A DNA stretch of 64,000 nucleotides. It comes from Halogranum amylolyticum. Lineage in GTDB: Archaea > Halobacteriota > Halobacteria > Halobacteriales > Haloferacaceae. Location: NCBI RefSeq assembly GCF_900110465.1, contig NZ_FODV01000003.1, positions 186,001 to 250,000 of the forward strand, given 5' to 3'. The notes under the pieces were generated by a model. The model saw only the letters and a list, made by a program, of their open reading frames with translations. It did no database searches and was not told where the DNA came from. Positions 7,781-61,661 of the stretch are shown here, one piece after another (the stretch's first letter is position 1; every line of letters starts with the position of its first letter). The translations under genes were made by a program, and so were the position numbers.

Positions 7781-9795
7781 ATGACCGCGTTAGACCCCCT
7801 TCACGTGCTCGTCGTCGCCGACGGACCGACGGTCTCGGATCTTCTCGCCGACAGCGACGCCGTCACGGTGGTCGAACGGTCCCCTGCAGAGGTGTCGGCT
7901 GCACTCGTCGCCCTCGACCCCGACTGCCTCCTCGTCGACGACCTCGACGCGCTCGACCGGGCGACCCTCGACGCAGTCGACCGTCGGGGCGTCCCGGTCG
8001 TCGCCTACACCGACGCTGCGCTCGAAACGCTCGTCACACGGGAGTGGGTCGCCGGCTACGTCCGCAGCGACGACGGCGACGACCCCGCTCGCCGACTGGT
8101 CGACGAACTCGTCTGGGTGACGAGCCAGGAGACACGCCAGCAACTCCGTCACAGCACCGACCGAGTCACGGCACTCCACGACGCCGCGACGCGACTGTTC
8201 GTCGCCGAGACGCCCGACGAACTGTATCGGTCGACGGTCGAAGTCGCAGACGACGTCCTCTCGTTCGACATCTGTTACGTCGGCATCGTCGACGGCGATG
8301 AGATCGTTCCGAAGGCCGTCTCGGCCGACTCACCCACCGACGGTGCGCGGCGGATGCACGTCGACGAGGGACTCGCCGGGAAGACGTATCGGACGGGGAC
8401 GTCCCAGCTGGTGCGTCGCGTCACCGACGACGACGAGGCGAACCCCGCGCGACCGGAGTACCGCTCCGGTGTCAGCGTCGCCATCGGCGAGTACGGCGTC
8501 TTCCAGGCGGTCGCACGCCGTTCCGACAGGTTCGACGAGACCAACCTCGAACTCGCCGAGCTGCTCGTCTCGCACGTGACGGCGGCGCTGAAGCGTCTCG
8601 AAGCAGAGTCGCAACTGCGCAGCGAACGTGACCGTCTCAGCGCGCTGTTCGAGAACGTCCCGACGCCGCTATCGCCTTCGAGTTCGACGACGGCCGACCC
8701 GTCGTGCAGCGAGTCAACTCGACGTTCGAGCAGGTGTTCGGCTACGCGGCCGACGACGTCGTCGGCGAGAACGTCGACGAGTTCATCGTCCCGCCGGAAC
8801 GGGACGCGGAGGCCGCGGCGTTCAACGAGACACTACAGGCGGGGACGAACCTCCGGGCGGAGGTCCAGCGGGCGACGGCGACCGGCGTTCGGGACTTCCT
8901 CCTGCACGTCGTCCCGATCCGACTCGACGAGACGAACGCGGGCGGCTACGCCATCTACACGGACGTCACCGACCAGCGGGAGCGCGAACGCGAACTCCGC
9001 CGGCAGAACGAACGGCTCGACGAGTTCGCGAGTATCGTCTCACACGACCTGCGGAACCCGTTGACCGTCGCCAGCGGCTACCTCGATCTCGCCCGCGAGA
9101 CGAACGACGACGCGAACCTCGAGAAGGTCGACGCGGCGCTCGGCCGGATGGAACGGCTCGTCGAGAACCTCCTGCGACTCGCCCGCAAGGGACAGATCGT
9201 CGGCGAGACGACGCCGGTCGAACTGCGAACGGTCGCGACGGAGGCGTGGGGACACGTCGAGACGGCGGACGTCGAGTTGGTGCTGTCGCTCCCGACGGAC
9301 GAGACGATCGACGCCGACTACGACCGACTGGTCGACCTGCTGGAGAACTTGTTTCGGAACTCGGTCGAGCACGGGGTTCGACCTGCCTCCGGTCGCTCCG
9401 CTTCCGGAGACAGCGTGAAGCGAAGCTTCACGAGCAGTCGGGCAGAGCCCGACGACAGCGTGGAGCATGGCTCCACGAACAACCGGACGGAGTCCGGTGA
9501 CTCGGTCGAGCACGGTTCTACGGACGGCCGGACGGAGTCCGCCGACGCAGCCACGGACGGCGAGGTGACGACCGTTCGCGTCGAGACCACCGACGGCGGG
9601 TTCGCCGTCGAAGACGACGGTCCCGGCATCCCCGAGGGGGACCGCGAGTCGGTGTTCGAGATCGGATACACCACCGACGACGACGGCACCGGGTTCGGGC
9701 TCGCCATCGTCCCGCGTATCGCCGAAGCTCACGGTTGGAGCGTCGCCGTGACCGCCGGCGTCGACGGAGGCGCGCGCTTCGAGTTCTCGGTGTGA
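7781..9795 (+). pseudogene. Sensor histidine kinase (receiver-like/GAF/PAS/HisKA/HATPase), frameshifted
   Basis: Two overlapping frames together encode one haloarchaeal multidomain kinase. The first (from ATG 7781) has a receiver-like N terminus (DPLHVLVVADGPTVSDLL), then a GAF domain (about residues 125-280), and enters a PAS domain at RLSALFENVP. At about 8660 the frame shifts by one base; the continuation AAIAFEFDDGRPVVQ and VFGYAADDVVGENVDEF completes the PAS, followed by HisKA (SIVSHDLRNPLTVASG, with the phospho-accepting His) and HATPase motifs (LLENLFRNSVEHG, VEDDGPGIP, GTGFGLAIV). Restoring one C in the CCC run at 8659-8661 would give one uninterrupted protein of about 670 residues. 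It may be a real mutation or a base-call error. An in-frame palindromic repeat array interrupts the HATPase domain (see separate entry). Confidence 0.85.
9388..9540 (+). repeat. In-frame array of short perfect palindromes within the kinase HATPase domain
   Basis: Directly after the N-box (LFRNSVEHG) the coding sequence carries alternating stem-loops. GTGAAGCGAAGCTTCAC (9415-9431), GTGGAGCATGGCTCCAC (9460-9476) and ACCGGACGGAGTCCGGT (9482-9498) are perfect 7-bp stems with 3-nt loops; TCGGGCAGAGCCCGA (9438-9452) has a 6-bp stem. Degraded ones flank these (9388-9408, around 9503-9520 and 9525-9540). The repeat period is about 44-45 nt. In protein it reads as repeated SVEHGSTNNRTESGD-like units, so the N-box motif SVEHG itself has been re-copied. 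The frame is kept through the array. Confidence 0.85.
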
Positions 9796-60224: not shown

Positions 60225-61661
60225 CTAGTTGCCAGTCCACCGCAGCAGCAGCAGCGTCCCCTCGAACAACGCCACCATGGTGATGGCGATGATGATGGGT
60301 GCCATCCCCGTCGGGTCGGGGCTGACGAGGAACGCGAGTCCGAGGAACGACCCCCAGAAGATGAGCCGTTTGTCCTCCAGCCACTGTCGAGTGACGAGGT
60401 TCATCATGATGGCGAGCATGATGAAAAGCGGGATCTGGAAGACGATGGCCATGTAGCCCATCAGGATGAGGATGAGGTTGAACGTCTCCGAGAGGCCGAA
60501 CGCGATGAGCGCCGTCCCCTCGGTGTAGCTGGTGAAGTACGCGAAGATGGAGGGGAGCACGACGAAGTGTGCGAAGGCGACGCCGACGACCGCGAGGATG
60601 AGACTCGTCGGCACGGAGGCGAGGTAGTACTTCCGCTCCTTCTGGTAGAGACCGGGTCGCATGAACAGATACGACTCGTAGACGAACACCGGTAGGCCGA
60701 CGACGACGCCGACGAGGCTGGCGACTTTCAGCTTCGTGAGGATGAGTTCGAGCGGGCCGTAGATGTGCGGCCGGAGGTCCTCGTTGCCGGGGAGCCCCGC
60801 ACCGGGGATATGCTTGTTCCAGAGGAAGTTGATGATGTCGATGGTGCTGGGGACGTACTGGAGTACCTCGCCGAGACCGAACACCGACAGTGCAACCACG
60901 CCGCCGATGACGAACACGACGGCGAGACGTCGGACCATCTCCTCGATGTGGTCCGCGAGCGGCATCTCCTGGTCGGTCTCGGGACCGTCGACCATCCCGT
61001 CGTCGTCGACGTCGTCGACGTCGTCGAAGTCGTCGTGGTAGTCCTCGGGAGTGGCGAAGTCGTCGTCGAAGTCGTCGTGGAAATCGTCGTCGAAGTCGTC
61101 GTGGAAGCCGTCGCCCGACTCCGTGGCCGGGGCTGCGAACCCCTCACCGGCGTCTGCGACGGCGTCGTCCGTCCGATCTGGCCGTCGGTCGGCGGCGTCG
61201 GGCGTCTCCTCACCATCGCCGGTTCGAGCGTCGGCCCGTCCGTCCTCGGCGTCTCGGTCGGCGGCCACCGGTTCGAGCGTCGCCGCCTCGTCGTCTTCGA
61301 CGAGGGCGGTGTCGCCGGGAGCCTCGGGCTGTAGCGCCGGCTCCGAGTCGTCGTCGGTAGTGTCGGCAGCGTCGGCGTCGCCGACCGTCGTCTCACTGGC
61401 CGAAGGCGAGTCGTCGGACGGTTCCGAAGTGCCGGTCGCAGGCGGGTCGTCGGTCGGCTCTTCGTCGGTCGACTCCGCGCCGTTCGTTCGGGCCGTCGCG
61501 TCGAGATCGACCGAGTCGGCGTCGTCACTGGTCGTGTCGTCGACCTGTTCGGTCCGATCGTCGGTCGACTGGGTGGCGGTCTCGTCGGACTCGGGAGAGG
61601 TGTCGTCGCGGTCGTCCAACTGGTCGGTCGGCTCCGCATCCGACTCCGATTCGTCGCCCAT
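60225..61661 (-). CDS. tatC: Sec-independent translocase subunit TatCo, with long acidic N terminus
   Basis: A 478-residue protein. Residues 1-232 are a low-complexity acidic N-terminal region (repeats such as DDFDDDFHDDFDDDF near residues 186-220). From about 233 (MPLADHIEEMVRRLAVVF) TatC follows: VLQYVPSTIDIINFLW, LELILTKLKVASLVG (conserved Glu/Lys region), GLYQKERKYYL, FAHFVVLPSIFAYFTSYTEGT, MVRLILMGYMAIVFQIPLF-like segments; about six helices. TatC recognises twin-arginine signal peptides. The gene is divergent from tatCt. Confidence 0.95.
   Translation of the reverse strand: MGDESESDAEPTDQLDDRDDTSPESDETATQSTDDRTEQVDDTTSDDADSVDLDATARTNGAESTDEEPTDDPPATGTSEPSDDSPSASETTVGDADAADTTDDDSEPALQPEAPGDTALVEDDEAATLEPVAADRDAEDGRADARTGDGEETPDAADRRPDRTDDAVADAGEGFAAPATESGDGFHDDFDDDFHDDFDDDFATPEDYHDDFDDVDDVDDDGMVDGPETDQEMPLADHIEEMVRRLAVVFVIGGVVALSVFGLGEVLQYVPSTIDIINFLWNKHIPGAGLPGNEDLRPHIYGPLELILTKLKVASLVGVVVGLPVFVYESYLFMRPGLYQKERKYYLASVPTSLILAVVGVAFAHFVVLPSIFAYFTSYTEGTALIAFGLSETFNLILILMGYMAIVFQIPLFIMLAIMMNLVTRQWLEDKRLIFWGSFLGLAFLVSPDPTGMAPIIIAITMVALFEGTLLLLRWTGN

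Follow-up and report, generated by a model that had tools for sequence, protein, structure and literature searches.

The array and its host gene

The window, meaning the whole stretch of 64,000 nucleotides of Halogranum amylolyticum contig NZ_FODV01000003.1 analysed here, carries the C-terminal part of a sensor histidine kinase with an array of short palindromes behind its N-box. The array is built of units that each hold two hairpins, P1 and P2. The features of the locus are as follows.

8704..9795, + strand: C-terminal part of a haloarchaeal sensor histidine kinase (open reading frame; Pfam PAS, HisKA and HATPase_c)
9343..9375, + strand: native N-box ENLFRNSVEHG (from the sequence and an alignment with 18 kinases)
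9364..9382, + strand: P1-type hairpin with one mismatch in the window, GTCGAGC-ACGGG-GTTCGAC
9385..9441, + strand: 57-nt block identical to part of the array of the kinase at about 68.6 kb of G000:C29 (sequence comparison)
9387..9409, + strand: perfect 6-bp hairpin with an 11-nt loop, CTCCGG-TCGCTCCGCTT-CCGGAG
9409..9453, + strand: unit 1, made of GACAGC, P1 (core 9415-9431, GAA loop), AGCA and P2 (9437-9453); peptide DSVKRSFTSSRAEPD
9414-9432, + strand: perfect hairpin CGTGAAGC-GAA-GCTTCACG, 8-bp stem
9437-9453, + strand: perfect hairpin GTCGGGC-AGA-GCCCGAC, 7-bp stem
9454..9498, + strand: unit 2, made of GACAGC, P1 with the N-box codons VEHGST (core 9460-9476), AACA and P2 (9482-9498); peptide DSVEHGSTNNRTESG
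9455..9515, + strand: 61-nt block identical to part of the array of a third kinase, at about 433.4 kb of G000:C35 (sequence comparison)
9459-9477, + strand: perfect hairpin CGTGGAGC-ATG-GCTCCACG, 8-bp stem
9482-9498, + strand: perfect hairpin ACCGGAC-GGA-GTCCGGT, 7-bp stem
9499..9543, + strand: unit 3, decayed; P1 at 9505-9521 keeps 5 of 7 pairs and P2 at 9527-9543 keeps 6 of 7

Positions 9409-9498 are thus four perfect, closely spaced hairpins (8-3-8, 7-3-7, 8-3-8 and 7-3-7) with decayed neighbours around them. An earlier note on this DNA had described four clean stem-loops, which stand, although their stems are slightly longer than the three of 7 bp and one of 6 bp that it gave. The hairpins lie 4-5 nt apart, the period of the array is 45 nt and the unit can be written GACAGC-P1-RRCA-P2. 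Unit 2 is the best match to a covariance model in this genome (69.9 bits) and unit 1 scores 65.2 bits. In a census of the genome based on that one model and on 400 kb read directly, these two units were joined above 64 bits by a gene for a PCC-domain protein and two further kinases.

The earlier note held that such recurrence is not expected by chance, and our counts agree. Four of the 19 perfect 7-3-7 hairpins in the window fall inside 85 nt of the array. Adjacent hairpin pairs (stem of at least 7, loop of 3, gap of at most 12) number eight in 400 kb of the same contig versus none in each of four dinucleotide shuffles; three of the eight are the window array, and among the others are pairs in another kinase, in a non-kinase gene and between genes. 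These shuffles, together with slid-partner and reversed-pattern controls, rule out chance palindromes.

Two observations stand apart from the array. At G000:C29 29721-29766, 92806-92848 and 327700-327753 lie hairpin pairs that appear to be intergenic, with loops of GAA or ATC and in one case an adjoining T run; they may be terminators or may belong to the repeat family of the array. Window positions 60999-61113 hold an imperfect tandem repeat, rich in GTC (about 3.6 x 30 nt), which is unrelated to the array.

Alignment of the 18 kinases places the insertion point directly after EH[GA]. The array stays in frame in the 8704-9795 reading frame and ends ahead of the next strand, and the HATPase Pfam match starts only past it; in array-free kinases VEHGG runs straight into VTVRV. 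SVEHG repeats like those that the earlier note mentioned in other haloarchaeal kinases were found in many of them, and the repeat number, which it suggested comparing among relatives, does vary: orthologues of the window kinase within one genus carry about 4.5 units (the window kinase), about 2 (G001) and none (G002). Successive motifs are spaced by 15 residues in 208 cases, 16 in 155 and 17 in 33, so that the frame is kept, and some kinase arrays are tandem runs of identical units. The difference in unit number between the kinases of close species opens the possibility that signalling is tunable. In one kinase of another genome (L365), a different tandem unit, DEPSLADAREDAVGAC, is repeated three times after a unit of the 16-residue type described below, and is possibly another hairpin-type variant.

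The reading frame of the window kinase is itself broken at about 8660-8710, where ORF 7781-9064 (the GAF part) and ORF 8704-9795 lie in different frames. The kinase of a same-genus relative reads through at this position, and the break is due to a frameshift of recent date, unless the draft assembly contains a sequencing error here.

Copying within the genome

The window array is a mosaic of blocks common to two other kinases of the same genome. The partner of the 57-nt block lies on the same contig, 127 kb away, and that of the 61-nt block on another contig; in their longest aligned stretches, the kinases that share these blocks reach an identity of only about 76%. Beside the 57-nt block the adjoining P2 differs as a whole, being GTCGGAC-GAG-GTCCGAC in the partner versus GTCGGGC-AGA-GCCCGAC in the window. 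The hairpin at 9364..9382 has a GCTCGAC version that is common to both sister kinases, within a 24-nt exact block.

Among 156 arrays, exact sharing of at least 45 nt was found in 13.9% of same-genome pairs versus 0.13% of different-genome pairs, and in the 240 nt upstream of these arrays no same-genome pair shared 35 nt. The suspicion in the earlier note that the element is self-copying is thus borne out, in the sense that units are copied within genomes.

Units beyond the kinases

Protein searches of 342 sampled haloarchaeal genomes returned matches to the two main types of unit, type A (15 residues, SVEHGSTSSRTQSGD) in 157 genomes and type B (16 residues, AVEHGSTSPRSQARED) in 150, with no stop codon in any listed match of either type. 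The long-loop hairpin at 9387..9409 of the window resembles the P2 hairpin of type B as well as intergenic hairpins. The covariance model finds 22-41 copies in five of the six listed genomes of genus g14, which from its named relatives we tentatively take to be Halorubrum-like. Copies are fewer in the remainder of the order, and non-haloarchaeal genomes of the phylum gave no more than one weak match. An exact search with the P1 palindrome returned kinases in haloarchaea and unrelated genes in bacteria. The array peptide has no match in phage records, and in plasmid records it occurs only in haloarchaeal histidine kinases (4 records). Rfam gave no match above its gathering score in five loci that include intergenic arrays and the window kinase. 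In the open-access literature, a scope that omits most subscription journals, VEHGST appears only in an unrelated Bacillus paper, and SRTESGD and its relatives do not appear.

Searching either P2 hairpin with its variable positions left free revealed units in frame, with stems verified, in at least 18 unrelated protein families besides kinases. Named by Pfam, these hosts are universal stress protein, prephenate dehydratase, beta-CASP hydrolase, carboxyltransferase, a glutaredoxin-like protein, ribosomal protein uL2, CobN, an Elp3-like protein, MTA phosphorylase (phosphorylase superfamily), a class I aminoacyl-tRNA synthetase, glucose/sorbosone dehydrogenase, MutL, a rhodanese/metallo-beta-lactamase protein, a VLRF1-type release factor, a tetrapyrrole methylase, a PCC-domain protein, a CxxCxxCC-domain protein and a NirDL-like siroheme decarboxylase. 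A PurL-like protein with AIRS domains (L023) is a weaker case. In metallo-beta-lactamase-fold hydrolases of organisms from three haloarchaeal families (L347, L351 and L359) a similar type B unit sits in a similar region, and was either inherited or repeatedly acquired.

The clearest insertion is in uL2. The gene of G075 has 48 bp extra (GACAGCGAGGCGTCTGACGACGCCTCGGGCAGCCGGGCGGAGCCCGGC before GAC) that are missing in its congener G032, and the two genes are 98% identical elsewhere, which makes this a clean empty site; the insertion is found neither in the other uL2 sequences among the matches listed nor in the Haloarcula uL2 in the PDB. MTA phosphorylase, identified by the same comparison, carries a similar 17-residue insertion relative to its solved homologues.

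The same units also lie between genes. In genus g14, intergenic hairpin arrays have the same spacers as the coding units, as the following example shows, with the window below it for comparison.

Intergenic: (CGAGGGAC ACG GTCCCTCG)-ggca-(ACCGGGC TTC GCCCGGT)-gaca-(GCCGGCGC TAC GCGCCGGC)-gacag-(CGTGGCGC GAC GCGCCACG)-ggca-(GTCGGGC GAA GCCCGAC)
Window: (CGTGAAGC GAA GCTTCACG)-agca-(GTCGGGC AGA GCCCGAC)-gacag-(CGTGGAGC ATG GCTCCACG)-aaca-(ACCGGAC GGA GTCCGGT)

At L357, L367 and L374 (G022) and at L350 (G001), what appear to be intergenic regions also hold long arrays of short, perfect hairpins; the loops are of 3 nt, the stems vary, and near-copies of the type B hairpin are among them.

The hairpin unit is a short DNA repeat that has spread through haloarchaea, both between genes and in frame inside proteins, even one as central as uL2. 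The earlier note had suggested that it may be a self-copying or slippage-prone element specific to this spot. In a rival explanation of this kind, kinase-specific slippage, the N-box codons were duplicated in tandem during replication and the palindromes are by-products. The period of 45 or 48 nt, the SVEHG re-created in every unit, the dominance of 15- and 16-residue spacings and the tandem runs of identical units all fit that proposal. However, duplication of a native N-box cannot yield the GST-RTESGD half of the unit, which array-free native N-boxes do not have, and the same scaffold of P2, spacers and P1 recurs in unrelated proteins and between genes. The in-frame non-kinase copies and the uL2 empty site contradict slippage, which we consider very improbable; duplication of the N-box alone is rejected on the non-kinase and intergenic copies.

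The repeat family is genome-wide, with a hot spot at the N-box. P1 outside kinases often has a GAA or GGA loop, and unit 1 of the window (GTGAAGC-GAA-GCTTCAC) shows the GAA form; the kinase form, GTGGAGC-AYG-GCTCCAC, is this non-kinase scaffold carrying N-box codons. Its codons, A/GAC AGC GTG GAG CAC GG, are similar to the beginning of the unit, GACAGC GNGGNGC, which is probably one reason why the N-box is favoured; another would be that the loop that follows tolerates insertions.

As to how the units move, one possibility, which we regard as doubtful, is a non-autonomous mobile element whose hairpins are recognised by a transposase in trans, in the manner of REP/RAYT or MITE systems, with insertion at GAC. 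The 48-bp uL2 insertion is precise and has GAC on both sides, which may point to a target, but the unit itself begins with GAC, as most non-kinase copies do; many copies per genome occur in one genus. Yet the GAC at the 3' end was imposed by the search pattern, and stems that vary so freely would be unusual for an end recognised by a protein. Y1 transposase, the one family checked, is rejected as the mobiliser, since PF01797 is missing in the four copy-rich genomes G015, G081, G094 and G112. The loci around the Y1 genes examined hold only one moderate and one weak covariance-model match.

Covariation of the stems

A scan of all column pairs in 204 distinct type A and 144 distinct type B units returned exactly the two stems as top pairs: 27:33, 2:14, 5:11, 23:37, 22:38 and -1:17 in type A, and 26:37, 25:38, 2:14, 24:39 and 5:11 in type B. 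The covarying positions of P1 are third codon positions in both arms. Covariation in P2 alters amino acids: the residue pairs in R-x-y-z are T..S in 85 cases, P..A in 34, A..P in 26 and S..T in 5, and their first bases are Watson-Crick partners in 182 of 198. When both triplets of type B are left free (NNN), 29 of the 43 matches have fully complementary triplets by our own count. In a joint alignment of 38 kinase and non-kinase sequences, 95.7% of cells are paired and 12 of 14 pairs show two-sided changes; none of 500 shuffles reaches the observed pairing, which drops to 26-44% when partners are slid by 1-3 columns. Since the units share ancestry, none of these counts stands for independent events. 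The palindromes that the earlier note asked about are thus conserved, through paired changes. The arms stay complementary even where the protein changes, and the amino-acid pairs R-T-x-S, R-P-x-A and R-A-x-P are set by DNA complementarity. Covariation of this origin would mislead coevolution and structure-contact methods.

Strong stem covariation is the usual mark of selected RNA structure, and the hairpins could have a role in the mRNA, such as an effect on its stability or on how fast it is translated. We consider this very improbable. Taking P1 core A, P1 B, P2A and P2B core together, stems with a single mismatch show 48 G.T versus 71 A.C on the sense strand, and this lack of an excess of G.U-compatible mismatches argues against selection for transcript structure; moreover, the units lie in unrelated genes and between genes, their number shifts between orthologues and Rfam gave no match in the five loci compared. 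Selection on the protein, with the repeated VEHGST..RTESGD peptide as a functional linker of the ATPase domain, would account for units that are always in frame, without stops and in a constant place after the N-box, but it appears very unlikely: the residue pairs track DNA complementarity, a close orthologue is entirely without the array and the same peptide occurs in unrelated proteins.

One feature hints at something beyond the pairing of arms. The type B P2 loop, TCGCANGCTC, is conserved at synonymous sites, its Ala/Thr codon having T as third base (mostly GCT) in 139 of 144 units, contrary to the GC-ending codons that are usual in the genomes carrying them. This hints at selection or a recognised sequence in addition to template switching.

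Inverted loops and possible template switching

Template switching between the arms of an inverted repeat homogenises the arms and inverts the spacer (PMC8604942; PMC8794818). On one stem, present in 73 copies in five g14 genomes, loops occur together with their reverse complements (GGA 22 and TCC 19, GAA 12 and TTC 3, TCT 4 and AGA 2, AAC 5 and GTT 3), and the complementary-loop pairing has P about 1e-5 by relabelling. Symmetry is weaker among coding units (rho 0.43, P 0.015), as it should be if the protein is damaged by some of the flips, but AGA, a common loop there, lacks a TCT partner. Identical stems that carry complementary loops hint that the hairpins are kept perfect by template switching, through events that we infer from the sequences. 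Natural copies number in the hundreds, loops are flipped, and haloarchaea can be cultured and are open to genetics, so that how hairpins are kept perfect is a directly testable question.

A proposed origin of the array

We consider it highly probable that the array is a protein-coding copy of a haloarchaeal family of interspersed palindromic repeats, whose arms are kept complementary by processes at the level of DNA. The unit of this family is about 45-48 bp, with hairpins P1 and P2 (stems of 7-8 bp, usually with 3-nt loops), GACAGC before P1 and RRCA between the two. Units lie between genes as hairpin arrays and also in frame, without stops, in unrelated proteins, presumably in surface loops. 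In kinases they sit after the N-box, grow and shrink as tandem arrays, and are swapped among the kinases of a genome, as copy numbers and mosaic blocks show; the route is most likely unequal or non-allelic recombination with the repeats and the N-box as homology. The hairpins would persist through DNA-level processes, and the best candidate is polymerase template switching, which would equalise the arms and flip the loop. The host protein would tolerate the resulting loop. Nothing indicates that the peptide is needed, since paired changes track DNA complementarity and not amino-acid similarity.

More tentatively, and with less than even confidence, we propose that this is a selfish coding and intergenic repeat that spreads without a dedicated enzyme, its hairpins provoking template switching and recombination, by which the units are perfected, inverted, duplicated and moved. 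If true, it would be DNA structure alone that rewrites protein loops throughout an archaeal order, in kinases, in ribosomal proteins and in tRNA synthetases.

Comparison with known systems

Arm homogenisation and spacer inversion by template switching have been described for coding inverted repeats (PMC8604942; PMC8794818), and in this the array is alike. Template switching, however, is a process of mutation, whereas what is described here is a repeat family, dispersed through a whole archaeal order, on which that process seems to act.

With REP elements and BIMEs, as treated in the relevant passages of PMC2817692, the units share short palindromes, regularly spaced interspersed or intergenic arrays and many copies per genome. 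According to those passages REPs lie outside genes and are linked to a Y1 transposase, whereas haloarchaeal copies are also coding and the four copy-rich genomes checked are without PF01797. PARCEL repeats are likewise tandem coding repeats of variable number with DNA dyad symmetry, spread within genomes, but they are 25 residues long, amphipathic and often in membrane-targeted ORFs, whereas the haloarchaeal unit is hydrophilic, has 15-16 residues and sits in conserved enzymes and uL2.

The title of a 2002 paper by Ogata reportedly calls protein-coding palindromes "unique but recurrent". The nearest kind, compared by description, is the Rickettsia palindromic element (RPE; Ogata et al. 2000, 2002): in the passages of PMC10969869 that describe them, RPEs are palindromic repeats of about 150 bp in ten families, in frame in many unrelated genes of Rickettsia whose protein is apparently still made. 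The haloarchaeal repeat is similarly palindromic and in frame, in at least 18 Pfam families, with empty sites in relatives (uL2 and MTA phosphorylase). Unlike an RPE, its unit is 45-48 bp long and has two separate hairpins, tandem arrays, covarying stems and flipped loops. In our view the haloarchaeal repeat is a new version of such protein-coding palindromic elements, one that grows in tandem at the N-boxes of kinases. Palindromes that encode protein are known from Rickettsia, as a peculiarity of that genus; a similar element is here widespread in haloarchaea, inside highly conserved genes.
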